From contig PNNC01000205.1 of the NCBI GenBank assembly GCA_013824015.1, forward strand, positions 1-64,000: a stretch of DNA of 64,000 bases. The letters are read 5' to 3'. The notes under the pieces are model-generated. The model made no database searches. It saw only the letters and a list, made by a program, of their open reading frames with translations, and was not told the DNA's origin. This document shows, piece by piece, positions 1 through 16,248 of the stretch. Position 1 is the first letter of the stretch. Each line of letters opens with the position of its first letter. The position numbers and the translations under genes were made by a program. This DNA is from Polaromonas sp. (GTDB taxonomy: Bacteria > Pseudomonadota > Gammaproteobacteria > Burkholderiales > Burkholderiaceae_C).

Positions 1-362
1 TCGCCGTGTATCTCGGCAATATCGATTTCGGCCGAGCCCTTGAACGCGCCATGCTCGGCGATCTGGATCACGCGCGAGTCCATGGTGGCTTCGACCAGGC
101 CTTCCACCACCAGCGTGTCGCAGTCGGTGATCTCGACACCCTTGAGCTTGATGTTGGGCCCCACTGTCAGCTTGCTGCCGCCTTCGCGCGAAGGGCTGCC
201 GGCCGTTGCGGTGTTCGCCTGCGCGGGCGTTGCGCTCACCGATGCGGCACCCGTGGCTGCCGCCGGGGAACCATTGGTATAGGGGTTCGGATTGGGACTG
301 CCGTGTCGCAGGCTGGTGGGTTCGTTGTCGCGCTTGCCGAAGAACGGTGATTGCAGTGCCAT
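1..362 (-). CDS. Bactofilin / polymer-forming cytoskeletal protein (truncated by window edge)
   Basis: Minus-strand reading from CAT at 360-362 gives MALQSPFFGKRDNEPTSLRHGSPNPNPYTNG...KLTVGPNIKLKGVEITDCDTLVVEGLVEATMDSRVIQIAEHGAFKGSAEIDIAEIHG, typical bactofilin repeat pattern. Confidence 0.85.
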   Translation of the reverse strand, partial: MALQSPFFGKRDNEPTSLRHGSPNPNPYTNGSPAAATGAASVSATPAQANTATAGSPSREGGSKLTVGPNIKLKGVEITDCDTLVVEGLVEATMDSRVIQIAEHGAFKGSAEIDIAEIHG

Positions 363-516
363 GGGGTTTCCTTCAAAAGAATCCGATGGTACGGAGACCG
401 CTGGCCGATGTCTCCACTGCTAATGCAAGATCAGTAACGAAATTAGTTGCAGTGCATGGGCGGTGTTGCCCTGCCCGCATCGGCCGCACCGGTGCTGCGG
501 GCGATAGACTCGCAGC

Positions 517-828
517 ATGAGCTACACACTGCGGATCTTTCACACCGACGATGTCAGCGCAGCGGAACGTGAGGCCGCCGCTCAGCGTTTTCGCGCGGCG
601 CTGGAGGCGTCGCTGGGTGACGCCAGCCTGGTCGTGCCGGTGTACCGGGCGTGGCTGCGGCTGCTGCTGGCGCATGGCGAGCAGGAACGTCCCTGGGACC
701 TGAGCCCGGCTGAACAGCTGCTGGCCGACCAGTGGGAGGCGGCCGAACTGGCAGCCACGCGCGCCGCCTTTGGTGCAGAGCGCTACATGGGGGACGCGCA
801 CTATGAACTCGACATCGGCGACCGTTGA
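517..828 (+). CDS. Conserved hypothetical protein (103 aa)
   Basis: ORF MSYTLRIFHTDDVSAAEREAAAQRF...; codon usage consistent with coding. Confidence 0.6.
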   Translation: MSYTLRIFHTDDVSAAEREAAAQRFRAALEASLGDASLVVPVYRAWLRLLLAHGEQERPWDLSPAEQLLADQWEAAELAATRAAFGAERYMGDAHYELDIGDR

Positions 829-879
829 GAGCGCCGCCGCCGACCGTCTGGCCACACAGCCGGACCGGGCGCCGGCTTT

Positions 880-1347
880 TTGCCGATAATCCCTGCATTG
901 ACTGAAAGGCGTGTTGTGGAATCCGTGGTGTTTGTGCTTGTCGTCCTGGCCTTGCTGGGAGGGGCCGTCTTTGTCTGGCTGCGCAGGAAGCGGCGCAAGG
1001 CCGAAGCCGCACCCGCCCGGGAAACTGCCCACGAAGAAGTCGCCTACCAGGTCAGTTATGCGCCGCCCGAGTTCGAATGGAGCGGCACCACCACCGGCGC
1101 CCTGCCCCTGAAGACCCTGACCTACAAGCAGTACGAGTGCCTGGAGGATGCGCGTTACGGGTTCCGCATCGTTGCCGTGGCGCCGTCCGAGCGCAAACAG
1201 CCGCAGCCGCACAAAACCCGCGCCCATGGCCTGAAAACCGTGGCCTCGCTGCAGAAACACGGCTTTCTCGACGACGACGGCACCGGCGGTTATGTGATCA
1301 CCGACCACGGCCTGAACGCCCTCGAAGTCTGCAGCGTGCGCTACTGA
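880..1347 (+). CDS. Membrane-anchored hypothetical protein
   Basis: N-terminal TM (VVFVLVVLALLGGAVFVWLRRKRRK) followed by soluble domain; start may be downstream (GTG/TTG). Confidence 0.6.
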   Translation: MPIIPALTERRVVESVVFVLVVLALLGGAVFVWLRRKRRKAEAAPARETAHEEVAYQVSYAPPEFEWSGTTTGALPLKTLTYKQYECLEDARYGFRIVAVAPSERKQPQPHKTRAHGLKTVASLQKHGFLDDDGTGGYVITDHGLNALEVCSVRY

Positions 1348-1377
1348 CCGGCCTGGCCGGGCCGGCGCCGGCCAGAC

Positions 1378-2217
1378 TCAGACGGTCGCGTCTTTCGGGG
1401 CCTTGCTCACCGCCCAGGAATACAGGGCGACAAACACCAGCGCGTCGAACACCGCGCCAAAGCAGATGTAAAGCACCGGCATGAACAGCACCGACAGGTG
1501 TTGCATCAGGAAAGCCTGCGCCAGCACCTGGTGCGGCACCATGACGATCAGGAACAGCAGGATCAGCGCGGTGTGGAACAGCTTGGACAACAGGCCCTGG
1601 TTCAGGATGTAGTAACCCATCGCCAGCATCAGCGGCGTGGCCAGGATCACCACGTAACCGATGGTCATCAGTTCCTCGCTGTGGCGCGCCACGCTGTAGG
1701 GAAAGGGCGTGGGGGTCAACCAGAACCAGGCCAGCGCGATGAGCTGCACCACGCAGAAGATGCGCAGCGGGTATTTCAGCGGCAGCGCCGCGTCGCGCAT
1801 GCGCATCGACAGCCCCAGGCCAAGCAGCGCAAGCACCGTGGTCACCACCATCGTGGTCATGCCCGGCATCAGGTCACCCTCGGGCACATTGGACAGCACC
1901 AGCGCGTATTGCCCCGCCTCGTTGAGCCGGGTGGACAGACCGAAAGGCAGGTTCAGGCCGGCCGACCAGAACAGGATGCATTCGCGCCAGAACGCCAGCA
2001 GCAGCGGCTTGGCCCAGAACAGCAGGCCACACAGCAGCACCGGCAGCACGATGGCCTGCGCCAGCAGCCAGGGCGTGACCTTGAGCGGGGTGATGGCGCG
2101 GTGCGGGCGCACCTTGACATTGCGCGCCCTGGCTTGCCTGACCGCGGCAAACGAGGCATGAAAGACGCGATCATGCTCGCGCGCCTCCTCGGAAACAGAA
2201 ATGGTTTTGGAGCTCAT
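1378..2217 (-). CDS. Polytopic membrane protein of EPS-like operon
   Basis: MSSKTISVSEEAREHDRVFHASFAAVRQ... with about six hydrophobic segments; 8 nt downstream of the YaiO-like gene. Confidence 0.75.
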   Translation of the reverse strand: MSSKTISVSEEAREHDRVFHASFAAVRQARARNVKVRPHRAITPLKVTPWLLAQAIVLPVLLCGLLFWAKPLLLAFWRECILFWSAGLNLPFGLSTRLNEAGQYALVLSNVPEGDLMPGMTTMVVTTVLALLGLGLSMRMRDAALPLKYPLRIFCVVQLIALAWFWLTPTPFPYSVARHSEELMTIGYVVILATPLMLAMGYYILNQGLLSKLFHTALILLFLIVMVPHQVLAQAFLMQHLSVLFMPVLYICFGAVFDALVFVALYSWAVSKAPKDATV

Positions 2218-2225
2218 GGGCTTGA

Positions 2226-3065
2226 TCAGAAGTCGTGGAAGATGCCGACGTTCACGCCGCTGCGGCGGTAGGACGGGTTGGTGTAGCGGTTGGCGCCGAC
2301 GAGCACGCCGGTGCTCGGCGTCAGCCAGTGCCGCCAGCTCAGGCTGGCCTCGCGGCTGTTGAAGTTGACCAGCTGCGCCCCGGCGGCCACCGCCAGGTAG
2401 CCTTCGCTGCCCCAGCCGTAGCGGCCGGTCACCAGGTCCTGCTTGTTGCGACCCCAGGTCAGCGCCACAAACTGCTGCTGGCTTTTGACCGAACCCGGAT
2501 TGCTGGTGTTGAAACGCACGCCGCCCTCGACGATCCACGGCGCTTCGAAATAATAGGCCGCGCCCAGCGACACGCTGCGGTCGGTATACCCTGTGGGCGC
2601 GTCGTAATAACCAACACCCACCGAGCCAACCAGGTTGCGGCCGGGCAGAAACTTGCGGTACAGGGTCGCGTCGATACGCGCCTTGGGCAGGTAAAAAGCG
2701 CCGTCACCCGCGCCGATCGCCACCGAGGCATGCCAGTCGGGGTTGAAGGTATAGGTGTCACTGACCCCCACAAAGGTGCCCGACTGACCGAAACGATGGT
2801 GCTGCGACAGCTCCCCCTGCAACACATGCGCGCCGGCGCCGTAGGTGCCGCGCAGGGTCAGGTCGCGCCAGTTGCCGAAGCCGCCGGTCAACCTTTGCGC
2901 CCCCGCGCTGAGTTCCAGGCTGCGCTGGGGCGGAGCGCCTTCGGAGGCCGGCGGCGCGGCGGCCATGCTGACCTGGTTGGGCACGGCCGTCTGGCTTTGG
3001 GCCAGGACTGGCGCAAGCGGCAACAGGCAAGCCGCCAGGGCAAGGACGGGGGTGATTCTGGACAT
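2226..3065 (-). CDS. YaiO-family outer membrane beta-barrel protein
   Basis: Signal peptide MSRITPVLALAACLLPLAPVLAQ; LSAGAQRLTGGFGNWRDLTLRGTYGAGAHVLQGELSQHHRFGQSG... alternating strand pattern ending in F. Confidence 0.8.
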   Translation of the reverse strand: MSRITPVLALAACLLPLAPVLAQSQTAVPNQVSMAAAPPASEGAPPQRSLELSAGAQRLTGGFGNWRDLTLRGTYGAGAHVLQGELSQHHRFGQSGTFVGVSDTYTFNPDWHASVAIGAGDGAFYLPKARIDATLYRKFLPGRNLVGSVGVGYYDAPTGYTDRSVSLGAAYYFEAPWIVEGGVRFNTSNPGSVKSQQQFVALTWGRNKQDLVTGRYGWGSEGYLAVAAGAQLVNFNSREASLSWRHWLTPSTGVLVGANRYTNPSYRRSGVNVGIFHDF

Positions 3066-3122
3066 GAAACTTCCTCTAAAAAACGGTCGGGTATCGGACG
3101 GCGGATGGGCGGTCGCTCGCGC

Positions 3123-4109
3123 TCAGGTGCAGCGGGCCGCAGCGTCGACCGCGTTCACGCCCTTGCTGACCAGCAACTGGTAGGCGGTTTCATCGGTCAC
3201 GGCCCAGCGCGCCGAATGCCGCAGGGGCGTGGCTTCGCGCAGCCAGCAACTGGCCGTGGCCTTGTCGTCCTGGCGCAGCGCCAGCACGGCCAGCACACCC
3301 CAGGGATAGTCGGCCTTGCCGTGGTTCAGCCATTCGCTGCGGTGCTGCTGCATCCATGCGCGGTAATGCTGCCGGGCGTCCGCCGGCAACAGCGGGAAAT
3401 CCACCAGCAGCGGAAAAACCTGGGCGACGTGGTCCGGGTAGAACGCGGCTTTCTGCGATCGCTGCTCAAGCTGGGTGGACACCAGAAAACGCTTGTCGAC
3501 CGGATTCCAGAAGGTGGCATGAATGGCGCGCGCCAGCTTGCCGGCTTCGGCGCGCTGCGCGGCCTGGCGGCTGTGGACCTTGAGTGACCAGACTTCCAGG
3601 TTGTCCATGAACAGGCCATGCAGCACCAGCGGCGACACCATGTACACGCCGCGCGAAGGCTGGAACAGATGCGCCAGCGACGCCTGGCTGACGGAATGGC
3701 TTTTTTGCCAGGCCGGGTTTTTGGCGAGCTTGTCCGGCATGGTTTCCAGCAGGCGCATCCACATGGCGAGCAGCGAGTCGTCCGCATCGGCGCTCTGGCA
3801 GGCCGCCCAGGTGTTGGCTGCACCGCGGCAAAAGCGGTCGAAAGTGCCGTCGGGTTTCTGGCGCGGCAGCAGCCAGTTGACGAATTTTTCCGCGGGCTGC
3901 GCGATCACCATGCCGTTGTCATGTGCCAGCAGCAGGGCCTGCATCGCGAAGTAGGGGTCGGCCGATGCGCCGCCGTTGAGCACCGTGATGGCGCCGCTCG
4001 CATCGGAATAGGCCCGCAGGTCCAGTGCCGGCGCGGCAGCCGCGCCCGCCGGATGGATCAGCGAGGTGACCAGCGCGCAGCCGGCCAGGAGGAAACGGAA
4101 TGATTTCAT
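3123..4109 (-). CDS. Secreted alpha/alpha-barrel (glycoside-hydrolase-like) protein
   Basis: Signal peptide MKSFRFLLAGCALVTSLIHPAGAAA; DGTFDRFCRGAANTWAACQSADADDSLLAMWMRLLETMP; located in a polysaccharide operon. Confidence 0.6.
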   Translation of the reverse strand: MKSFRFLLAGCALVTSLIHPAGAAAAPALDLRAYSDASGAITVLNGGASADPYFAMQALLLAHDNGMVIAQPAEKFVNWLLPRQKPDGTFDRFCRGAANTWAACQSADADDSLLAMWMRLLETMPDKLAKNPAWQKSHSVSQASLAHLFQPSRGVYMVSPLVLHGLFMDNLEVWSLKVHSRQAAQRAEAGKLARAIHATFWNPVDKRFLVSTQLEQRSQKAAFYPDHVAQVFPLLVDFPLLPADARQHYRAWMQQHRSEWLNHGKADYPWGVLAVLALRQDDKATASCWLREATPLRHSARWAVTDETAYQLLVSKGVNAVDAAARCT

Positions 4110-5146
4110 GCGGCCTTCACCATGCCTATTTCGCGGGCCCAGACCGTGCCGTGAACGGTGACACCGTCCTCGACGATGATGTTGTTGGCCGTCACCGTGG
4201 TCTGCGCATCGGGCAGGCCGATCACCGCGCCGGCGCCGATCAGCACATCACTTTCCGACACCAGCGGACCCCAGGCCCGGGCCTGCTTGAACACATACAC
4301 GCGTTTTTCACAGGTCACCGCGCCATGCACCTCGGCGCCGTAACCGATGCTCACACCTTCGCGGGCCTTGATGTCGCCGATGACCCGGGTGCCCATGCCG
4401 ATGGTCAGGAAACCGGTCACCACCAGCGAGCCGCGGTAAATGCAGTCCGGCGGCAGCGCGCAGTTGCCGCGTATCAGGAACAGCGAAGGTGTCTGCTGCA
4501 CCGCATCGGGCAGGTCCGCGTAACTGGCGTCCGACAGCGTGCCGGTGTAGGGCTCGGGCCCGCTGCCGTCGCGGGAACCGAAATGCAGTGACGGCGCATG
4601 CAGGCGTTCGAACCAGGTTTCATTGCCGAGGTTTATCGCCACGCCGGCGGACACCCGGCGCAATGCAATGCCGTTGCGCCCCACGCGCAGCACGCCGTCG
4701 GCATGGGCCCAGTCGTGGATTTCACCTTCAGGGCCCAGGCGGATGTCCCCGGTGGCGTACACCGCTGAAAACGCGGAGCCGGCGCCTGCGTGCAGGTCGC
4801 CCCGCACATACACCGGCTGCTTGCTCAGAATGGCGTCGCTGTCGATGATGCTGGCGCGCGCGATCAGGCGCTTGCCGGCACCTTTCCAGTCCCCGGCGTC
4901 GGGCTGGACCGGCAAAAACTCGAAGTCTTCATAACCGGTGGACGGGCCGTCGCCCAGCTTCGCCGATACGTCCGCATGCAGACGCCGTGCGAAGTGGTCA
5001 ATGTCACTGGTGTAATTGGCAGACACCGGCAGCGCGGCCAGGTCTGTGGGATAACGCCACTCGCGGAAAGCCGGCACAAAGGGCAAGGTCAGCAGGATCA
5101 GGCAGACCAGCGCAAACGCGGCATAGGTGAGATAACTTTCAGACAT
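4106..5146 (-). CDS. Membrane-anchored bactofilin-like / left-handed beta-helix protein
   Basis: N-terminal TM then repeats such as GSLVVTGFLTIGMGTRVIGDIKAREGVSIGYGAEVHGAVTCEKRVYV; ATGA-type overlap with downstream gene. Confidence 0.7.
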   Translation of the reverse strand: MSESYLTYAAFALVCLILLTLPFVPAFREWRYPTDLAALPVSANYTSDIDHFARRLHADVSAKLGDGPSTGYEDFEFLPVQPDAGDWKGAGKRLIARASIIDSDAILSKQPVYVRGDLHAGAGSAFSAVYATGDIRLGPEGEIHDWAHADGVLRVGRNGIALRRVSAGVAINLGNETWFERLHAPSLHFGSRDGSGPEPYTGTLSDASYADLPDAVQQTPSLFLIRGNCALPPDCIYRGSLVVTGFLTIGMGTRVIGDIKAREGVSIGYGAEVHGAVTCEKRVYVFKQARAWGPLVSESDVLIGAGAVIGLPDAQTTVTANNIIVEDGVTVHGTVWAREIGMVKAA

Positions 5147-6579
5147 TACTTGACCACCTTTTGAGCTGCGCGGTAACGGATGGTTTTGTCCCAGACCATG
5201 TCGCGCTTGAGCAGGCGGTCCAGCATCAGGCTCCAGACCGCACCGGAGATCGCGAAGAGGCTGACCAGGAAACCCAGCATGTTGAAGGGCAGCAGCCGCA
5301 GGCGCCGGCGATTGCCGTCGATCAGCACCGCCACCACGATTTCAAAGAAGGCGGCAAAGTTGCCCAGCGTGCCGTAGATCATCAGCGCGAAGATGGGAAT
5401 CAGTTGCGACAGCAGCGAGCCGGCATTGAGGAAATACAGCCCCAGCGCCAGGCACCAGCCGACCAGCATGACCAGCGGAATGACGAAGACGAACAGCAGC
5501 AGCAGGCCGTCCACACGCTGGCTCAGGGTCAGGTAGGGACTGCTGGCAAACTGCCACCAGTACCTGGCCATCACCTGGTTGTGGCCCTTGGCCCAACGCG
5601 AGACCTGCTTGATGCGCACGCCCCACTCCTCGGGCACTTCCTCATAACATTCAGAGCGGTTGGTGTAGACCGTTTTCCAGCCGTTGAACATCAGCCGGAA
5701 AGTGATGTCGGTGTCCTCGGCCAGCGTGTCGTCATGCCAGCCGCCCACCGCCTCGACGGCCGACAGGCGCACACCGCCCACGGTGCCGCCGTACTGCGGC
5801 ATCAGGTTCAGGTTCATGCGCGCCTGCTGGTCCACCTGGTAGCCGGCCGAGCGTTCGAGGTCCAGCATGCGCGTCAGCAGGTTGGCGCCGCTGTTCACGG
5901 GCACCACCCGGCCCATCACCGCACCGATTTCCGGGTCGAAAAACGGCGCCACCAGCTGTTTCAGCAGCCCGCGCCCCGGCACGTAATCGGCGTCGAAAAT
6001 GATGGCGATGTCGCCCTCGGCGAAGTGCAGCGCGTCCTTGAGCGCAGCCGATTTGCCGGCCTTGCCGCCGACGCGGTGAAAGGGCGAGATGCGCCCGGGA
6101 TGACGCGCCACGTAGTCGTCGATGATGGCGGCCGTGCCGTCGCTGGAGCGGTCGTTGACCGGAATGATCTTCAGGCGGTCCGCCGGGTAGTCGGTATTGA
6201 GCAGCGCTTCCATGCAGCCGGCAATCACCCGCTCCTCATTGTGGGCAGCAATAAACACGGTGATCATGGGCCAGCGGGCCACCGCGATGTCGATGTAGGG
6301 GTGGCGCTGCACGCCGGTCAGGCGGTTCATGGTGAACATGAAGTGCCGGATGCCATACAGCGTCATGAGCAGCACAATGAACACCAGCAGGCAGGCCATC
6401 ACCGCGGCCACCGGGTAGTCCTTGAAGGTGGGCACCAGGCCCTCGGTCACGGGCTGGGCCCAGGCCGGCAGCGCAGTGGCGAGCGACACCAGCGCCGCTG
6501 CCAACACACGGCGCGGGACGCCGGTCTGCAATGGCACACGGCTGGGGGAAGGCCGCAAGCAGCTCGGATCAACAGGCAT
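5146..6579 (-). CDS. Processive family 2 glycosyltransferase (PgaC/HAS/NfrB-like)
   Basis: ITVFIAAHNEERVI, FDADYVPG, LAEDTDITFRL, QVSRW (QxxRW) motifs plus flanking TM segments. Confidence 0.9.
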   Translation of the reverse strand: MPVDPSCLRPSPSRVPLQTGVPRRVLAAALVSLATALPAWAQPVTEGLVPTFKDYPVAAVMACLLVFIVLLMTLYGIRHFMFTMNRLTGVQRHPYIDIAVARWPMITVFIAAHNEERVIAGCMEALLNTDYPADRLKIIPVNDRSSDGTAAIIDDYVARHPGRISPFHRVGGKAGKSAALKDALHFAEGDIAIIFDADYVPGRGLLKQLVAPFFDPEIGAVMGRVVPVNSGANLLTRMLDLERSAGYQVDQQARMNLNLMPQYGGTVGGVRLSAVEAVGGWHDDTLAEDTDITFRLMFNGWKTVYTNRSECYEEVPEEWGVRIKQVSRWAKGHNQVMARYWWQFASSPYLTLSQRVDGLLLLFVFVIPLVMLVGWCLALGLYFLNAGSLLSQLIPIFALMIYGTLGNFAAFFEIVVAVLIDGNRRRLRLLPFNMLGFLVSLFAISGAVWSLMLDRLLKRDMVWDKTIRYRAAQKVVK

Positions 6580-6599
6580 GATGCAACTCCGGAAAAAGA

Positions 6600-7748
6600 T
6601 CAGGCCAGGACCGGCTGCGCCACAGGCGCGCCGACCAGGCTGTGTTTGAGTGCGGCCACGATCTGCGCGGACGCCGTGCCGTCGCCGAACGGATTGCCGG
6701 CCCGCGCCATGCGGGTCCAGGCCGCGCTGTCCTGCGTCAGGCGGGTCACTTCATTGACGATGGCGCTGCGGGTGGCGCCGATCAACAGCGCACAGCCCGC
6801 CTCAATCGCCTCGGGCCGCTCGGTCTCGTCGCGCAGCACCAGGACCGGCACGCCGAAGGTCGGCGCCTCTTCCTGCAGGCCACCGGAGTCGGTCAGCACC
6901 AGCCACGCATCGGCCAGCGCCTGCTGCATGCCGGTGTAGTCCAGCGGCGCTGTCAGTGTCACGTTGGCCATGCCGCCCAGGATGCTGTTGACCGGCCCCT
7001 GGATCACCGGGTTGAGGTGAACCGGAAACAGCACCTGCAAGTCGGGCTGCTGGCGCGCAATGTCGGCAATCGCATGGCAGATTTCCTCCACATCACGGCC
7101 CCAGTTTTCGCGGCGATGCACCGTCACCAGCAGATGACCGCGGCCCGGCACCCGGCGCTGGACGCCGCGGTGCGCGCAGGTCCACTGCTGGGCGTCGACC
7201 ACCGTGTTGCCGGTGAGGGTGATGAATTCGTCGGCAATGCCCTCGGTCTGCAGCGCCACGCGGGCGCGCTGGGTCGGCGCAAAATGAAAGCGCGCGAGCC
7301 GGCTGAGCATCTGGCGCAGACCTTCTTCGGGGAAAGGCCGGGCCAGGTTGTAGGTGCGCAAGCCAGCCTCGACATGCGCCACCGGCACGCGGTGGTAAAA
7401 CCCGGCCAGCGCGCCCTGAAAGGCGCTTTCGGTGTCGCCCTGAACCACCACCAGCGACCAGTCGCGCTGTTGCATCACCGCGTCGAGCTGCCGGCGGCAG
7501 CCGGTGCTGAAGTCCAGCAGGCTGTCGCCGTCGCGTGTGAGCGCGATATCCGGCGTCACATCAAAACAGGCCAGGATCTGGTCCGCCATGTCGGCGTGCT
7601 GGCCGGTATGCAGCCAGGACACACGTGCCCAGGGCGCCTCGCGCAGGGCGTGGTACAGCGGCGCCAGCTTGATGATTTCCGGGCGGGTGCCCGAGACCAG
7701 AAGAATGTCGTGGACGGCGCCGGCACGCAGCGGTGAGGACCCGCTCAT
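6600..7748 (-). CDS. wecB: UDP-N-acetylglucosamine 2-epimerase (non-hydrolysing)
   Basis: VSGTRPEIIKLAPLYHAL, VQGDTESAF, HVEAGLRTYN, FPEEGLRQMLSRLA, VTVHRRENWG, LTDSGGLQEEAPTFGVPVLVLRDETERPEAI. Confidence 0.93.
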   Translation of the reverse strand: MSGSSPLRAGAVHDILLVSGTRPEIIKLAPLYHALREAPWARVSWLHTGQHADMADQILACFDVTPDIALTRDGDSLLDFSTGCRRQLDAVMQQRDWSLVVVQGDTESAFQGALAGFYHRVPVAHVEAGLRTYNLARPFPEEGLRQMLSRLARFHFAPTQRARVALQTEGIADEFITLTGNTVVDAQQWTCAHRGVQRRVPGRGHLLVTVHRRENWGRDVEEICHAIADIARQQPDLQVLFPVHLNPVIQGPVNSILGGMANVTLTAPLDYTGMQQALADAWLVLTDSGGLQEEAPTFGVPVLVLRDETERPEAIEAGCALLIGATRSAIVNEVTRLTQDSAAWTRMARAGNPFGDGTASAQIVAALKHSLVGAPVAQPVLA

Positions 7749-8038
7749 GCGGCGCGCAAGCCGGAAGTTTCAGCGCGGACGGTGCCCGGGGTGTGCAGAT
7801 CCACAATCATGACCAGGTCACCGGCAAACCGGCCCACACCCAGATCACTCATGAGCTGGCGCTCCTGTTCCGCCGAGTCCATGCGCACAAAACACAGGGC
7901 CTGCCGTTTGCCGGCCTGGCTGGCGGCCAGGATGTCCAGCCGGGCCACCGAGCCATAACGCGAGCACAGCGAATGAATCGCCGGTTTCAGCGTACCGATA
8001 TCGGAGAAATTCTTGAGTTGATCAAAGGTGTTATTCAT
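7745..8038 (-). CDS. Small hypothetical protein (97 aa), first gene of the EPS-like operon
   Basis: MNNTFDQLKNFSDIGTLKPAIHSLCSRYGSVARLDILAASQAGKRQALCFVRMDS...; 4-nt overlap with wecB-like gene. Confidence 0.7.
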   Translation of the reverse strand: MNNTFDQLKNFSDIGTLKPAIHSLCSRYGSVARLDILAASQAGKRQALCFVRMDSAEQERQLMSDLGVGRFAGDLVMIVDLHTPGTVRAETSGLRAA

Positions 8039-8589
8039 AAGGAATCCCGTCTGTATTTTTTGCTAGCTAAGTAAAACTTTGGTTCCTACGCAATATAGAA
8101 AAGCTGTTGTTCTGCTGTTCTGGGGGAATACCGTTACAACATGTAGGACACGACCTCCTGGCCGGCCGATGGCTATTCGGAATTGGCATGAGCGGAATGT
8201 CTGCCGGCCGCGGGTGTGTCACGCAGCGCGGCCTGACCACGCCCGCCCGTGCGCCATGCCGGTTCTCCCGGCCTGGCCGCCGCCCCATCCGGTTACACAT
8301 CCACACACACGGTGCGTGATGAACGGCACCCCGTCTGTTCGCTAACGCACGCAGGCGCGGCTTCAAGCCATTGCCTGACAGGCAGACAGGCAGTGCCTTG
8401 TCATGGCGGGCGAAGGTGTGGCGACAAACCCGCGTCGGCCCGCTTGTCCAGCCATTCGCAAACCCTTGCCGGGTTTGTTCGGTAGCGTACATACAATGTG
8501 TTTCCAACCGCCTAAACTGGACCTCAGGCCCGCGCGCCACCGCTTCTGCCAGAGGCGCCGCTCGAAGCCCCGCTTCGGAGCCCTTGTTG

Positions 8590-9306
8590 ATGTCCGTTTC
8601 CCCCGACCCGAGAAAAAACCAGTTGCTGGCGGCCTTGCCGGACGACGAGCTGCAGCGCTGGCTGCCGCAGCTGGAGTCTGTTGACCTGCCGCTCGGCATG
8701 GTGGTGTACGAGTCCGGCAGCACCCTCAGCCATGTGTATTTCCCGACCACCGCCATTGTTTCGCTGCTGTATGTGATGGAAAACGGCGCGTCCGCCGAAA
8801 TTGCGGTGGTGGGCAATGAAGGCGTGGTGGGCATCTCGCTGTTCATGGGCGGTGAATCCACACCCAGCCGCGCCGTGGTGCAAAGCGCAGGCCGGGGCTT
8901 TCGCCTGCCCTCGGAAGCGATCAAGGAAGAATTCAAGCGCGCGCCGGTGCTGCACCTGCTGCTGCGTTACACCCAGGCACTGATCACGCAGATGGCGCAA
9001 ACCGCCGTCTGCAACCGGCACCACGCGCTGGACCAGCAACTGTGCCGCTGGCTGCTGCTGAGCCTGGACCGGCTGCAGGGCAACGAACTGGTGATGACCC
9101 AGGAGCTGATCGCCAACATGCTGGGCGTGCGCCGCGAAGGCGTGACCGAGGGTGCGCTCAAGCTGCAAAACCTGGGCCTGATCCGTTATTCGCGCGGCCG
9201 TATCACGGTGCTGGACCGGCCCGGTCTGGAAAAGCGCACCTGCGAGTGTTATGCGGTGGTCAAGAAAGAATATGACCGCCTGCTGCCTGACAGGCAGGCG
9301 ATCTGA
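8590..9306 (+). CDS. Crp/Fnr-family transcriptional regulator
   Basis: Cyclic-nucleotide-binding-type fold (LPLGMVVYESGSTLSHVYFPTTAIVSLL) plus HTH (MTQELIANMLGVRREGVTEGALKLQNLGLIRYSRG). Confidence 0.88.
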   Translation: MSVSPDPRKNQLLAALPDDELQRWLPQLESVDLPLGMVVYESGSTLSHVYFPTTAIVSLLYVMENGASAEIAVVGNEGVVGISLFMGGESTPSRAVVQSAGRGFRLPSEAIKEEFKRAPVLHLLLRYTQALITQMAQTAVCNRHHALDQQLCRWLLLSLDRLQGNELVMTQELIANMLGVRREGVTEGALKLQNLGLIRYSRGRITVLDRPGLEKRTCECYAVVKKEYDRLLPDRQAI

Positions 9307-9395
9307 GGGGGCTGCCCTCGCCAGGAATCGCGACGAGAAGCAGGTGATAGATTTTCTAGCGCATACTGCAGCACCGACTGGAACTGCATCTGACA

Positions 9396-10145
9396 GTGGC
9401 GCGGCCTTGTACTTGCCCCCGTGAAGGGGCCGCACCCTACCGGAGAAGCCGCTTGTCCGCAGTCGAAAACCACCTGATAGCGTGCCTTCCCGCGCGTGAC
9501 CGCAAGCGCCTGCTGGCCGCCTGTGAACCAGTTCAGCTCGCGCTGTCCGACATCCTGTGCGAGTCCGGTCAACCGACCCGCCATGTCTACTTTCCGACCG
9601 ACGGCTTCATTTCGCTGGTGACGCTGGTGGAGGGCAGCCCCGGCGTCGAGGTCGGTATGGTCGGGCGCGAAGGCATGCTGGGCGCGCAACTGGTATTGGG
9701 CGTCAAGCAGACGCCGTGGCGGGCGCTGGTGCAGGGACAGGGCGCGGCCTGGCGCCTGGACACCACAACCTTCACCCGCACGCTGGCTGCCAGCCCCGCG
9801 CTGCAGCGGGTGCTCAAGCACTATTTATATGTGCTGATGGCCCAGCAGGCCGCTTCCGCCGGCTGCCTGCGCTTTCACCTGATCGGCCAGCGCCTGGCGC
9901 GCTGGCTGCTGATGAGCCAGGACCGGGCGCACTCCGACAGCTTTCATGTGACCCACGAGTTTCTGGCCTACATGCTGGGCATGCGACGCGTTGGCGTGAC
10001 CGCCGCCGCCAGCCTGATGCAAAAAGACGGGCTGATCGAGTACCACCGCGGCGAACTCACGGTGCTGAACCGGGCCGGCCTGGAAGCCGCGGCCTGTGGC
10101 TGTTATGCGGCCGACTGCCGGACCTATGCCGGGCTGCTGGGCTAA
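9396..10145 (+). CDS. Crp/Fnr-family transcriptional regulator (second, tandem paralogue)
   Basis: DILCESGQPTRHVYFPTDGFISLVTLVEG; HTH THEFLAYMLGMRRVGVTAAASLMQKDGLIEYHRGELTVLNR; start could be TTG near 9452. Confidence 0.87.
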   Translation: MARPCTCPREGAAPYRRSRLSAVENHLIACLPARDRKRLLAACEPVQLALSDILCESGQPTRHVYFPTDGFISLVTLVEGSPGVEVGMVGREGMLGAQLVLGVKQTPWRALVQGQGAAWRLDTTTFTRTLAASPALQRVLKHYLYVLMAQQAASAGCLRFHLIGQRLARWLLMSQDRAHSDSFHVTHEFLAYMLGMRRVGVTAAASLMQKDGLIEYHRGELTVLNRAGLEAAACGCYAADCRTYAGLLG

Positions 10146-10345
10146 GCCACCGCAGCGCCAGCGTTGTTATCCTGCCACTTGCGGTCCGGCCTGGCCGCGT
10201 CGCCGGGCTGCCAGCGTCGCCTTATGTGCGCCAGCGCACGGACAGGCCTTTGCAGAGCCCCTACAAAGCAGGCAGGCGCCTGGCTGACATGCAGCGGGCG
10301 GCCCTTGCTGCAAGCCACGTCCCCGAACAACCTGACCGAGGCTCC

Positions 10346-10693
10346 ATGACCTCAGTTTCCATGTCCCCGTCTCCGGCGCCGTCTGCCGGACACATGCCCC
10401 TGCCCCATGGCCACAGCGCCGCGGCGGCGCCCTGTGGCCTCGGGCCGGATTGCGGCCCCGCCCCCCCTCGCCTGAGCATTGCCGTCGCTGACTGGGACGT
10501 GATGTTTGACGCCGTACGGGCCCGGCTGATCCGCACGGTGGGCGAGCGCCTGGGGGAACTGCCGGACGTGCCCCAGCACTCGGCCGAACTCTCGGCCAGC
10601 CTGGTGCAGGCGGTGGTGCTCGATTGTGTGTCTGCGCTGGACCAGCTGCACGCCGCGCTGGCCCAGGAACGAAGCCAACGTCCGACACCCTGA
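10346..10693 (+). CDS. Hypothetical protein (about 115 aa)
   Basis: ATG at 10346, MTSVSMSPSPAPSAGHMPLPHGHS...LSIAVADWDVMFDAVRARLIRTVGERLGELPD; between Crp/Fnr and GGDEF/EAL genes. Confidence 0.45.
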   Translation: MTSVSMSPSPAPSAGHMPLPHGHSAAAAPCGLGPDCGPAPPRLSIAVADWDVMFDAVRARLIRTVGERLGELPDVPQHSAELSASLVQAVVLDCVSALDQLHAALAQERSQRPTP

Positions 10694-10747
10694 CGGGCAT
10701 TCCCGGCAGCGCCGCGGGGCCGGCGCGCATGTTACCTTCACCGCCAT

Positions 10748-13258
10748 ATGGCATCGCTTCCCCTTCCCCCGCGCCCGGACGCGCTGCTCACCCACCCCCT
10801 GGACGGACAGCCTGCGCCGCCGGACTTGCTGCGGCTTCTCGAGCGGGCGGCCGGTGCAGGCAGCTGGATGCTGCTGATGCCCGAACGCCGGCTGGTGGGG
10901 TCCGCGCAACTGGCGGAACTGCTGGGCCGGGCCGCCGCGCCAGCGCTGGCCTGGGAAGATTTTCCCGGCATTTTTGCGCCCGAGTGGCGCGATCGCATGG
11001 CCTCGGTGTTGTCCGCCTGCCTGGACAACGCAAGCGCTTTTGACGAGGAAGCACAGATCATCACCGCCGGCGGCGCGCGCCTGTGGGTGCGCACGCTGGG
11101 CGACGTGGTGCGTGATGCGGACGGCACGGTGCGCCATCTCTCGGGCGTGATCCGGGACATGACAAGCCAGAAACGCGCCGAGCAGGAGACCCAAAGCCTG
11201 ACCATGCGCCTGGCGACGACACTGGCCAGCATCCATGACGCCTTTGTCACGGTGGACCGCGAAGGCCGCCTGACCTATCTGAACCCGGAGAGCGAACGCA
11301 TGCTGGGGCGTCCCGGCGCCGCATTGCTGGGCCTGCCGATCTGGGACGCGCTGGACGCCGACGGCGTGGCGCAGCTGCGGCACAACCTGAAAGCGGCTTT
11401 CGGCAATACCAGCCACCAGGAGTTCGAGGCCTGGTACACGCTTGCCGGCAAGTGGCTGGAACTGCGGGTCTACCCGTTTGAAGAAGGGCTGGCGCTGTAC
11501 CTCCGCGACGTCACCGAAAGGCGCCAGTCGCAGGAGCAGTTGCTGCTGCTGCAGACCAGCATCTCCCGGCTCAACGATCTGGTGCTGATCACCGAGGCCG
11601 GCCCGATTGACGCCCCCGGGCCGCGCATCGTGTTTGTCAACGACGCCTTCGAGCGCCACACCGGCTACAGCCGCAACGAGGTGATGGGCCAGTCGCCGCG
11701 GCTGCTGCAGGGCGAGCGCACGCAGCGCGTCGAGCTCGATCGCATCCGCAAGGCGCTGCTGCAGGCGCAGCCGGTGCGCGTCGAGCTGATCAACTACAAA
11801 AAAAACGGCGAGCAGTTCTGGCTGGAGCTGGACATCGTGCCGGTCGACTATTTCAGCCGCGGGCTCACCCACTGGGTGGCAGTCGCCCGCGACATCACCA
11901 CGCGCAAGGCCGCCGAGGAAGAAATCGAGCATCTGGCGTTTTACGACGCACTCACGCAGTTGCCGAACCGCCAGCTGCTGATGGACAGCTTGCGCCAGGC
12001 CCTGCTGCCCACCGACAACCCCGACCGGACCGGCGCGCTGATGTTCATCGACCTGGACAACTTCAAGGCCCTCAACGACACGCGCGGCCATGCCGTCGGC
12101 GACCTGTTGCTGCAGAAGATTGCGACGCGCCTGAACTCCTGCGTGCGGCTGCGCGACACGGTGGCCCGGCTCGGCGGTGACGAATTTGTGGTGCTGCTGG
12201 ACGACCTGGGGGACGACCGCGAGGCCGCCAGCCAGCGGGCCCGGGTGGTGGCCCAAAAAATTCTGGCCACCCTGTGCGAACCCTGCGACCTGGCCGGCAA
12301 CGACTACGACGGCACCTGCAGCATCGGCATCACGCTGGTGACCCAGCACCAGCAAAGCGTGGGCGAGCTGCTCAAGCAGGCCGACCTGGCGATGTACCAG
12401 GCCAAGGCCGCGGGCCGCAACACCATCTGTTTTTTCGACCCCGGCATGCAGGCGGTGGCCACGGCCAACGCCGCATTGACACGCGAACTGCGCCAGGGCC
12501 TGCGCAACAACGAGTTCGTGCTGTATTACCAGCCCCAGGTGGGCCCCGAGGGCCACATGGTCGGCGTCGAGGCGCTGGTGCGCTGGAACCATCCGGAACG
12601 CGGCCTGGTGGCGCCCAATGACTTCATCACCCAGGCCGAGGAAAGCGGGCTGATCCTGCCGCTGGGCAAATGGGTGCTGGACACCGCCTGCGCCCAGCTG
12701 GGCCAGTGGGCCAGGCGGCCGGAAACCCACAAGTTCAGCATCGCCATCAATGTCAGCGTGCGCCAGTTCCGGCATCCGGAATTTGTCGAGCAGGTGATGG
12801 CGGCCATCGCCAGCGCCGGCATCAGCGCGCACCGGCTCAAGCTCGAGCTGACCGAAAGCCTGCTGGCCAATGACATGGACGTGACCATCGCGAAGATGGG
12901 CATCCTCAAGGAAGCCGGCGTGACGCTGTCGATTGACGATTTCGGCATCGGTTATTCCGCACTGTCCTACCTCAAGCACCTGCCGCTGGACCAGCTCAAG
13001 ATCGATCGCAACTTTGTCAAGGACGTGCTGACCGACCCCAACGATGCTGCGATTGCGCGCACCATCATCGGCCTGGCCCAAAGCCTGGGCCTGGGCGTGA
13101 TGGCCGAAGGTGTGGAAACCACCGCCCAGCGCGACTTCCTGGCGCGCCACGGCTGCCACTGTTTCCAGGGCTACCTGTTCTGCAAGCCGTTGCCGATAGC
13201 CGAGCTCGAGCTGTTTATCCAGACCCTGCCGCCGGCACCGGACAGCCAGACCGCCTGA
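10748..13258 (+). CDS. PAS-GGDEF-EAL cyclic-di-GMP signalling protein
   Basis: PAS domains (FVNDAFERHTGYSRNEVMGQSPRLLQG), intact GGDEF (ARLGGDEFVVLLDD), intact EAL (GVEALVRWNHPERGLVAP). Confidence 0.95.
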   Translation: MASLPLPPRPDALLTHPLDGQPAPPDLLRLLERAAGAGSWMLLMPERRLVGSAQLAELLGRAAAPALAWEDFPGIFAPEWRDRMASVLSACLDNASAFDEEAQIITAGGARLWVRTLGDVVRDADGTVRHLSGVIRDMTSQKRAEQETQSLTMRLATTLASIHDAFVTVDREGRLTYLNPESERMLGRPGAALLGLPIWDALDADGVAQLRHNLKAAFGNTSHQEFEAWYTLAGKWLELRVYPFEEGLALYLRDVTERRQSQEQLLLLQTSISRLNDLVLITEAGPIDAPGPRIVFVNDAFERHTGYSRNEVMGQSPRLLQGERTQRVELDRIRKALLQAQPVRVELINYKKNGEQFWLELDIVPVDYFSRGLTHWVAVARDITTRKAAEEEIEHLAFYDALTQLPNRQLLMDSLRQALLPTDNPDRTGALMFIDLDNFKALNDTRGHAVGDLLLQKIATRLNSCVRLRDTVARLGGDEFVVLLDDLGDDREAASQRARVVAQKILATLCEPCDLAGNDYDGTCSIGITLVTQHQQSVGELLKQADLAMYQAKAAGRNTICFFDPGMQAVATANAALTRELRQGLRNNEFVLYYQPQVGPEGHMVGVEALVRWNHPERGLVAPNDFITQAEESGLILPLGKWVLDTACAQLGQWARRPETHKFSIAINVSVRQFRHPEFVEQVMAAIASAGISAHRLKLELTESLLANDMDVTIAKMGILKEAGVTLSIDDFGIGYSALSYLKHLPLDQLKIDRNFVKDVLTDPNDAAIARTIIGLAQSLGLGVMAEGVETTAQRDFLARHGCHCFQGYLFCKPLPIAELELFIQTLPPAPDSQTA

Positions 13259-13272
13259 AGCGGGCCCCGGGC

Positions 13273-16248
13273 TCAGGCTCCCGCCGCCAGCAGGGCCGCG
13301 TTGCCACCGGCCGCCGTGGTGTTGACGGTGACCGTCTGCTCGGCGCAGAAGCGGACCAGGTAGTTCGGACCGCCGGCCTTGGGGCCGGTGCCACTGAGGC
13401 CCTCGCCGCCGAAAGGCTGCACGCCGACCACCGCGCCTGTCATGTTGCGATTGATGTAAATGTTGCCGACATGCGCCGCCGCGGCCAGCGCCTGGGCGCG
13501 CGTATCGATGCGGGTCTGGATGCCCAGCGTCAGGCCGTAGCCCAGCGTATTGATCGCGGCGATCACGGCGGCGGGGTCGCCGGACCAGCGCACGACCTGC
13601 AGCACCGGCCCGAAAATTTCCTGCGTCACCGCACCGATGCCGGCCACCTCCAGGGCCACGGGCCGGACCAGATTTGCTATTGAATCGATAGCTGCCGGCC
13701 CTTGTCTGACATGGGCCAGAGGCATTTTTGATACTGAATGCAGGCTTTGCAACTGCCGCTGGAGGGTGTCAAAGGCGGCGCGGTCGATCAGCGGGCCGAC
13801 GTCGGTGGCCAGCTCGGCCGGATCACCGGCCACCAGTTCCTGCAGCGCGCCCTGGATCATGGCCATCACCTTGTCGGCAATGCCTTCATGCACACACAGC
13901 AGGCGCAGCGCCGAGCAGCGCTGGCCGGCCGAACGGAAGGCGCTGTGCACCACCGCATCCACCACCTGCTCCGGCAGGGCCGTGCTGTCCACCAGCATCG
14001 CGTTGATGCCGCCGGTCTCGGCGATCAGCGGAACAATCGGCCCGTCTTTCGCCGCCAGCGCGCGATGGATGGTTTTGGCCACAGCGGTGGAGCCGGTGAA
14101 CACCACGCCGGCGATGCCGGGCGCCGCCACCAGCGCCGCGCCGACGGTCTCGCCCGGGCCGTGCAGCAGTTGCAGCACGCCTGCGGGCACACCGGCGGCA
14201 TGCAGCAGCCCGACCATTTCCGACGCCACGCCCGGCGTTTGTTCGGCCGGTTTGGCCAGCACCCCATTGCCGGTGGCCAGCGCGGCGGCGACCTGGCCGG
14301 TAAAAATCGCCAGCGGGAAGTTCCAGGGGCTGATGCAGACCCAGACACCACGCGCCCGCAGCCGCAGTTCATTGGTTTCGCCGGTGGGCCCCGGCAAGGT
14401 CATGGGCGCCATGATGCGCTCGGCTTCGCCCGCGTAATAACGCAGGAAGTCGATCGCCTCGCGCACCTCGGCCACCGCGTCGCCCCAGGTCTTGAACGCC
14501 TCCTTCACCAGCAGCGCGCAGAAACGCGGCATCTGTTGCTGCAGCGCGTCGGCGGCGCGGCGCAACACCTGCGCACGCTCGGCCACCGCCAGCGTGCTCC
14601 ACTTTTGATAGCTGTTCATGCCCACTGTCAAAGGGCCGTCGAGCGATTGGACATCGAATTCCGGCACCACCGGCAGCGCGGTGGCGGCCAGCGCCGTGAA
14701 CAGCGGCGCACGCATGCTGTCGACCGTGAGGTCCAGGCCTTCGCTGTTGCGGCGGCCCGGGCCGTACAGGTCCGGCGGCAGCGGCAGCGATGGTTCGGCG
14801 GCCAGCTGCAGCGGTGAGGCCAGCAGCTGGTCCATGTCCACGGACGTGTCGGCGAGCTGGTGCACAAACGAGGAGTTGGCGCCGTTTTCCAGCAGTCGGC
14901 GCACCAGGTAGGCCAGCAGGTCGCGGTGCGCGCCGACCGGGGCATAGACCCGGCAGCTGATCTGCGGGTTTTTCAGCACCTCGCGGAACACTCCCTCGCC
15001 CATGCCGTGCAGCCTTTGCAATTCGAAAGGCACGGCATGGCGTGCCGCCAACTGCAAAATCGCGGCGATGGTGCCGGCGTTGTGCCCCGCGAACTGCGGG
15101 TAAATCGCATCGGGCGCGGCCAGCAGCGCCTGTGCGCAGGCCAGGTAGCAGATGTCCGTGTGCTGCTTGTGCGTGAACACCGGATAAAACGGCAGCCCCA
15201 GCTCCTGCGCGCGCTTGATTTCGGAATCCCAGTAGGCGCCCTTGACCAGCCGGCACATCAGGCGCAGCCGGTGGCGACGGGCGACGGCGATCACGTGCGT
15301 GACCAGGTCCAGCGCGCGTGTCTGGTAAGCCTGCAGCGCCAGCCCGAAGCCGCGCCACTGCGGGTGCTGGCTGGCCACACGCGCGGCCAGCGCCTCGAAC
15401 ACGGCCAGCGACAGTTCCAGCCGGTCCACCTCTTCGGCGTCGATGGTCAGGCTGATGTTGGCGCGGGCGGCCAGTTGACACAGGCCCCAGACGCGCGGCA
15501 CCAGTTCGGCCAGCACCCGCGCGTGCTGCGCGTCCTCATAACGCGGGTGCAGCGCGCTGAGCTTGATCGATATGCCGTCATTTTCCTCACAGGCCCTTCC
15601 CGCCACTGCGTTGACAGCGATGGATTGGATGGCGTCCTGGTAGCTGGCCAGGTAGTGCTGCGCATCCGCAGCGGTACGCGCGCCCTCGCCCAACATGTCG
15701 TAGCTGAAACGCAGAGTTGCCATCTTGCTGCGCGCGTTATCGGCCTCGCCGATGGCGTCCCCTATCGTCTGGCCCAGCACAAACTGCCGGCCCAGCAACT
15801 GCACCGCGCGCAAGGTGGCCGCCACCACGGTGCGCGCGCCCAGCCTGCCCATCAGGCTGCCCCGGCCGTCCTCAGGCAGGAATTTTTTGGACAGGGCCAT
15901 CGCCGAGGCCGACAGGCGCGCCATCAGGCCGTCGCTGGCGCTTTCAAAGTCGGCACGGCCAAGCTGGTCGGCAGTCAATGCAATGGCGGTTTCGGCATCC
16001 GGCACCCGCAGCAGGGCTTCGGCCAGCCGCATCAGGGCCAGGCCCTCGTTGCTGCTGATCGGGTACTCGCGCAGCAGGCTTTCCATGGCCCAGAATGGCG
16101 GCGGATTCTCACGCACCGCCTGTACCCAGGGCAGCGCCAGCGGCACGGCGGCGGCCCAGTCGAGGGCGCCTGCGAGCTGTTGCAAATGCCCGGCCACGAT
16201 GGCGTCTTCAGGGCGGCAGGGAGAAGGCAGACGTTGCTGGCGGCTCAT
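13273..16248 (-). CDS. putA: Bifunctional proline dehydrogenase / L-glutamate gamma-semialdehyde dehydrogenase
   Basis: ProDH (RLVKGAYWDSEIKRAQ, YPQFAGHNAGTIAAI) and ALDH (SPWNFPLAIFTGQVAAALATGN, FRSAGQRCSALR) domains; start taken at MSRQQRLPSP. Confidence 0.94.
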   Translation of the reverse strand: MSRQQRLPSPCRPEDAIVAGHLQQLAGALDWAAAVPLALPWVQAVRENPPPFWAMESLLREYPISSNEGLALMRLAEALLRVPDAETAIALTADQLGRADFESASDGLMARLSASAMALSKKFLPEDGRGSLMGRLGARTVVAATLRAVQLLGRQFVLGQTIGDAIGEADNARSKMATLRFSYDMLGEGARTAADAQHYLASYQDAIQSIAVNAVAGRACEENDGISIKLSALHPRYEDAQHARVLAELVPRVWGLCQLAARANISLTIDAEEVDRLELSLAVFEALAARVASQHPQWRGFGLALQAYQTRALDLVTHVIAVARRHRLRLMCRLVKGAYWDSEIKRAQELGLPFYPVFTHKQHTDICYLACAQALLAAPDAIYPQFAGHNAGTIAAILQLAARHAVPFELQRLHGMGEGVFREVLKNPQISCRVYAPVGAHRDLLAYLVRRLLENGANSSFVHQLADTSVDMDQLLASPLQLAAEPSLPLPPDLYGPGRRNSEGLDLTVDSMRAPLFTALAATALPVVPEFDVQSLDGPLTVGMNSYQKWSTLAVAERAQVLRRAADALQQQMPRFCALLVKEAFKTWGDAVAEVREAIDFLRYYAGEAERIMAPMTLPGPTGETNELRLRARGVWVCISPWNFPLAIFTGQVAAALATGNGVLAKPAEQTPGVASEMVGLLHAAGVPAGVLQLLHGPGETVGAALVAAPGIAGVVFTGSTAVAKTIHRALAAKDGPIVPLIAETGGINAMLVDSTALPEQVVDAVVHSAFRSAGQRCSALRLLCVHEGIADKVMAMIQGALQELVAGDPAELATDVGPLIDRAAFDTLQRQLQSLHSVSKMPLAHVRQGPAAIDSIANLVRPVALEVAGIGAVTQEIFGPVLQVVRWSGDPAAVIAAINTLGYGLTLGIQTRIDTRAQALAAAAHVGNIYINRNMTGAVVGVQPFGGEGLSGTGPKAGGPNYLVRFCAEQTVTVNTTAAGGNAALLAAGA
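13676..13730 (+). repeat. ~55-bp dispersed repeat (copy inside putA, antisense)
   Basis: gctattgaatcgatagctgccggcccttgtctgacatgggccagaggcattttt. Confidence 0.85.

Follow-up and report, generated by a model that had tools for sequence, protein, structure and literature searches.

The window analysed here, a 64,000-nucleotide stretch of DNA from Polaromonas sp. (assembly GCA_013824015.1, contig PNNC01000205.1), carries at positions 1378-8038 a locus that probably encodes a synthase-dependent exopolysaccharide system, one of a type not described before and most likely polymerising N-acetylmannosamine (ManNAc). Seven minus-strand genes, overlapping or tightly spaced, are found there as open frames (Table 1) at the coordinates given in the original prediction and with the spacing described in it, namely overlaps at 7745/7748, 5146/5146 and 4106/4109 and gaps of 8-57 nt elsewhere. 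The reading proposed at that time, a polysaccharide operon of the synthase type that is linked to UDP-ManNAc and differs from the canonical ones in its accessory genes, is supported by the present analysis, and the synteny search that it called for reveals six of the seven genes as a conserved module. Judged from its protein families, the window system is neither Nfr, Pga nor Bcs. No paper describing the operon, or coupling a YaiO or a bactofilin protein with such an operon, was found; the subscription literature lay mostly outside the search, and a name may exist.

Table 1. Genes of the locus and its divergent neighbours, with positions in the window.
Feature	Position	Strand	Basis or remark
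97-aa protein, weakly RRM-like, lineage-specific accessory, overlaps wecB	7745..8038	-	NF058537 20 bits, below cut-off
WecB-type non-hydrolysing UDP-GlcNAc 2-epimerase	6600..7748	-	TIGR00236; motifs GDT, HVEAGLR, PEE, HRREN
Processive-type GT2 synthase, C-terminal hydrophobic segments	5146..6579	-	PF13641, motifs
Membrane-anchored bactofilin-like beta-helix protein, one N-terminal TM helix	4106..5146	-	Family matches, charge count
Exported alpha/alpha-toroid protein, probable glycoside hydrolase	3123..4109	-	Predicted model, Foldseek
YaiO-family outer-membrane beta barrel, candidate exit pore	2226..3065	-	TIGR04390
Orphan polytopic membrane protein, about 7 TM helices	1378..2217	-	Synteny with GT2
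Crp/Fnr-family regulator 1, divergent; candidate operon regulator, not core	8371..9306	+	Longest frame, true start probably later
Crp/Fnr-family regulator 2, divergent; candidate regulator, not core	9396..10145	+	
PAS-GGDEF-EAL protein, divergent from operon	10748..13258	+	

Profiles from the seven window proteins were run over 91 neighbourhoods. Among the matches listed by one scan, 51 loci have full flanks, with at least 8 kb on either side of the GT2 gene (L021 and L072, equal in length and coordinates, are apparently one contig, which gives some overlap in the counts over these 51 and over the 80 loci mentioned below). The GT2 of these full-flank loci is accompanied without exception by the bactofilin-like protein and the 7-TM protein (51/51 each), by the YaiO barrel in 50, by WecB in 48, the other three having no WecB nearby, and by the alpha/alpha-toroid protein in 38. 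Clustering of the GT2 sequences at 80% identity, taken from genome contigs and the window only, gave 30 representatives, of which, again among the matches listed, 30 have the bactofilin-like protein, 30 the 7-TM protein, 29 the YaiO barrel, 27 WecB, 22 the toroid protein and 20 a deacetylase-like protein. The arrangement recurs in dozens of genera, far beyond chance. Eight distant GT2 loci from the same scan (28-34% identity) provide a built-in control for synteny: none has a bactofilin-like, YaiO or 7-TM neighbour, and WecB lies near only one of them, 4.2 kb away. Moreover, the gene order is variable, being WecB-GT2-bactofilin-toroid-YaiO-7TM, GT2-bactofilin-toroid-WecB-YaiO-7TM or WecB-YaiO-7TM-GT2-bactofilin, and wecB is divergent from the rest of the set in Burkholderia. 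Since these orders differ between lineages, the co-occurrence does not simply reflect the inheritance of one arrangement. For each partner, the correlation of its pairwise distances with those of the GT2 proteins exceeds that in every one of 200 permutations, shared ancestry not being corrected for.

The seventh gene stands outside this module. The original prediction counted the 97-aa gene as a part of the system; in fact, among the matches listed, it is present in 9 of 80 loci, in 5 of the 51 full-flank loci and in 2 of the 30 thinned representatives, its carriers being Polaromonas, Hydrogenophaga and their kin. It is therefore a lineage-specific add-on, and the core consists of six genes. 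One homologue of the protein is matched by RRM_1 (E=0.024). A second, apparently frame-broken copy of this RRM-like gene lies past the 7-TM gene at locus L036 (15289-15680).

What the original prediction had missed is an eighth protein of about 620 aa, found in 37 of the 51 full-flank loci among the matches listed, which combines a hydrophobic segment at the N-terminus with a GATase-like domain and a domain resembling polysaccharide deacetylases (PF01522 is matched at E<=0.1 by 20 of 22 members). This protein was not found at the window locus, at other Polaromonas loci or in the rest of the host genome, which is 88.8% complete, so that absent genes may sit in the missing part. Close relatives (Hydrogenophaga, Oxalobacteraceae) keep it, and its loss in the Polaromonas lineage is thus the simplest reading. 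In three Cupriavidus loci (L047, L054 and L058) the deacetylase-like gene lies between wecB and the GT2 gene and not after the toroid gene.

The family calls made earlier for WecB, GT2 and YaiO are all upheld by profile scores. The GT2, of 477 aa, matches PF13641 with 103.7 bits, and its motifs NDRS, DAD, ED and QxxRW are invariant among the orthologues. It is 93% identical to the GT2 of NZ_JAUYEY010000044 and groups inside Polaromonas; the GT2s of the system form one clade apart from PgaC and YaiP (support 100/99), which spans Acidobacteriota, Gemmatimonadota and Pseudomonadota. The score against the CelA/BcsA equivalog is below its cut-off (76 vs 699 bits), and the best named model is PgaC/IcaA (TIGR03937), with 122.8 bits against a cut-off of 422.3. 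WecB scores 396.5 bits with TIGR00236 (cut-off 210.15). Enzymes of the WecB family convert UDP-GlcNAc into UDP-ManNAc, and this one is the sole Epimerase_2 protein found in the host genome, as sequenced. A common alternative fate of UDP-ManNAc is oxidation to the uronate for the enterobacterial common antigen or O-antigens, which requires a UDP-sugar dehydrogenase. A search that was positive in 13 of 14 control genomes detected no such enzyme in the 88.8% complete host genome, and a route to the ManNAc uronate was accordingly rejected. Together with the single Epimerase_2 protein, this leaves UDP-ManNAc without any other evident use than by the GT2 of the same operon, which is the main ground for predicting a ManNAc polymer as the most likely product. 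Where a host genome has a single WecB, the sugar prediction is directly testable by one gene deletion.

From the perspective of the synthase, a main chain of GlcNAc resembling poly-beta-1,6-GlcNAc, or a mixed GlcNAc/ManNAc chain for which WecB supplies only some of the residues, is an unlikely alternative. PgaC and IcaA use UDP-GlcNAc, and pgaABCD/icaADBC provides the nearest named relative of the window GT2, likewise a QxxRW enzyme; when E. coli synthases were tested with the GT2 profile, PgaC again came nearest (189 bits), and the deacetylase-like periplasmic protein of most relatives recalls PgaB. A GlcNAc or mixed polymer could therefore be made. However, the match to the PgaC model is far below its cut-off, the operon has neither PgaA, PgaB nor PgaD, and the system adds WecB, the bactofilin-like protein, YaiO and the orphan 7-TM protein. 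Furthermore, WecB is kept through rearrangement in nearly all of the full-flank loci listed, whereas a plain GlcNAc polymer needs none.

The bactofilin-like assignment proposed earlier for the fourth gene stands for the family and falls short for the window protein itself: PF04519 is matched at E<=0.01 by 23 of 28 family members, while the window protein scores 22.8 bits, below the gathering score of 27.9, and it is for this reason labelled 'bactofilin-like' only. In a positive-inside count, the positive charge lies on the C-side of the N-terminal helix in 71 of 75 homologues, which places the beta-helix, and thus the bulk of the protein, in the cytoplasm according to this prediction. The alpha/alpha-barrel-like fold suggested for the product of 3123-4109 was borne out by the structure prediction then proposed, which gave a confident (alpha/alpha)6-type model (pLDDT 94) behind a signal-like N-terminus. 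The best Foldseek matches (prob 1.00, E 1.9e-5 to about 1e-3, TM 0.45-0.58) are the methylmannose polysaccharide hydrolase MmpH (E=1.9e-5), GH126 CPF_2247 and BcsZ-type endoglucanases; Listeria PssZ, which degrades a beta-1,4-ManNAc polymer (PMC11439720), appears lower in the list, at rank 48. At the sequence level, the protein has no detectable similarity to GH8 or GH126, and neither Pfam, PDB sequences nor hhalign gave a match. A sequence-level link to BcsZ/GH8 was rejected at an hhalign probability of 0.6%, and the link to hydrolases is therefore claimed at the level of the fold. The model suggests that the protein is probably a glycoside hydrolase of an undescribed family, in which the invariant acids D108, D111, D169 and E172 are only candidate catalytic residues. 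In two Methylococcaceae loci (L061:12323-14248 and L090:9405-11330) the toroid open frame runs to about 640 aa and so has double the usual length.

The sixth gene encodes a clear YaiO barrel (TIGR04390, 210.2 vs 32 bits; PF19413, 124.1 vs 23.9 bits), in whose 279 aa only the YaiO domain was found, and no TPR domain such as PgaA, BcsC and NfrA have. The 7-TM protein had no match in Pfam or the PDB, and its fold search gave no usable one (best E 0.19, probability about 0.2). Such an orphan without a fold match, next to a small barrel (the domain model has 230 positions) with no TPR periplasmic bridge, would also suit a GT2 and a 7-TM protein that assemble a short glycolipid for the cell surface or add sugars to a different polymer, with no free polymer exported. 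This is improbable: QxxRW and the other motifs of processive GT2 enzymes are invariant, and an exported hydrolase-like toroid enzyme with a deacetylase-like partner fits a polymer.

The parallel drawn in the original prediction with the NfrB-NfrA-WecB system, the N4 glycan receptor of E. coli, turned out to be loose, and membership of the window system in the NfrBA/NGR group with a changed accessory set is very improbable: the logic is the same, with UDP-ManNAc from WecB, an inner-membrane GT2 and an outer-membrane beta barrel, and many species have nfrB and wecB linked (PMC8669469), but no MshEN c-di-GMP domain was found in the GT2 and no TPR in the barrel, the GT2 profile gives NfrB only 33.5 bits and PgaC 189, NfrA was not found with the YaiO profile of the window system, and the bactofilin-like, toroid and 7-TM proteins are extra.

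Other known systems share single features with the window locus. Listeria Pss makes a beta-1,4-ManNAc polymer with Gal branches, a ManNAc polymer being also the product predicted here, and this polymer is hydrolysed by PssZ, an (alpha/alpha)6 enzyme that shares with the toroid protein the fold and no detectable sequence similarity; Pss is Gram-positive and, unlike the window system, has no outer-membrane part. The cellulose system (bcs) likewise combines a synthase GT2 with an (alpha/alpha)6 periplasmic hydrolase, BcsZ, whereas the window system is without PilZ, BcsB and BcsC and its substrate route points to ManNAc. A loose parallel is also offered by the yaiS-yaiP-yaiX-yaiO cluster of E. coli, with a GT2, the annotated acyltransferase YaiX, a YaiO barrel and an adjoining putative deacetylase. 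However, the catalytic part of YaiP shows only 27% identity, there is no WecB, and YaiX and YaiO of E. coli were not found by the profiles of the window system; in E. coli K-12, yaiX is broken by IS2.

For the ManNAc-polymerising system favoured here, the following mechanism can be proposed. WecB would convert UDP-GlcNAc into UDP-ManNAc in the cytoplasm, as expected from its family, and the GT2, to judge from its motifs, would link the sugar processively and thread the chain across the inner membrane. Their constant co-occurrence suggests that the 7-TM protein and the bactofilin-like protein, the latter as a membrane-anchored cytoplasmic scaffold, would act as partners of the GT2. In the periplasm, the toroid enzyme may trim or release the chain, in the way that BcsZ and PssZ act on their polymers, and the YaiO barrel, a candidate exit pore, would let the chain out or hold it at the outer membrane; the export step is inferred as a whole. 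In most relatives the anchored deacetylase-like protein would partly deacetylate the chain, while in the Polaromonas lineage, where this protein is absent, the polymer is probably left acetylated.

As regards regulation, Crp/Fnr neighbours recur in 12 loci among the matches listed. Outside Polaromonas, one close relative alone keeps the PAS-GGDEF-EAL neighbour at this position, GGDEF neighbours occurring otherwise in three scattered loci, again among the matches listed, and a query with the PilZ domain of E. coli BcsA had no match in any neighbourhood listed. With this lineage-limited GGDEF-EAL protein and neither PilZ nor MshEN found, control by c-di-GMP was rejected as an intrinsic feature of the system; at the Polaromonas locus it is possible. 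Rfam gave no match to RNA regulatory elements in window positions 1-14000, and a promoter scan performed no better than chance.

The module is found in Burkholderiales, Acidobacteria, Gemmatimonadota and methylotrophs. Few classes of synthase-dependent exopolysaccharides are known, and the system would be a further one, with a bactofilin-like protein and a membrane protein of no known family at its heart. The Burkholderiales that carry it live in soil, on plants and in water, and Ralstonia, Cupriavidus and Burkholderia species are among them; it is also present on an Escherichia plasmid. Several loci come from MAG contigs, and their species labels are possibly wrong, e.g., the single Corynebacterium and Rhodothermales rows. 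A broader proposal can be advanced only tentatively, namely that these loci may represent a widespread class of synthases that make poly-ManNAc, have a cytoskeletal protein, the bactofilin-like one, and the orphan 7-TM protein as obligate partners of the GT2 and lack a built-in c-di-GMP receptor. The distribution is patchy in Polaromonas (21 of 87 genomes) and sparse beyond it, with 8 of 399 genomes in the sample of the order and 4 of 399 in that of the phylum, the host being counted in each. All six core families occur together on the conjugative IncI-type plasmid NZ_CP057682.1 of Escherichia fergusonii (L116, 6581-13206), where the genes are annotated only singly and an Acyl_transf_3 enzyme is added. 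The bactofilin-like protein of this plasmid is short, and its frame as annotated lacks the N-terminal anchor. Finally, two unverified, unannotated wastewater records labelled as 'Listeria/Enterococcus phage' (L118 and L119) contain GT2 genes 29-38% identical to the synthase, and the DNA that bears them is probably bacterial rather than phage.
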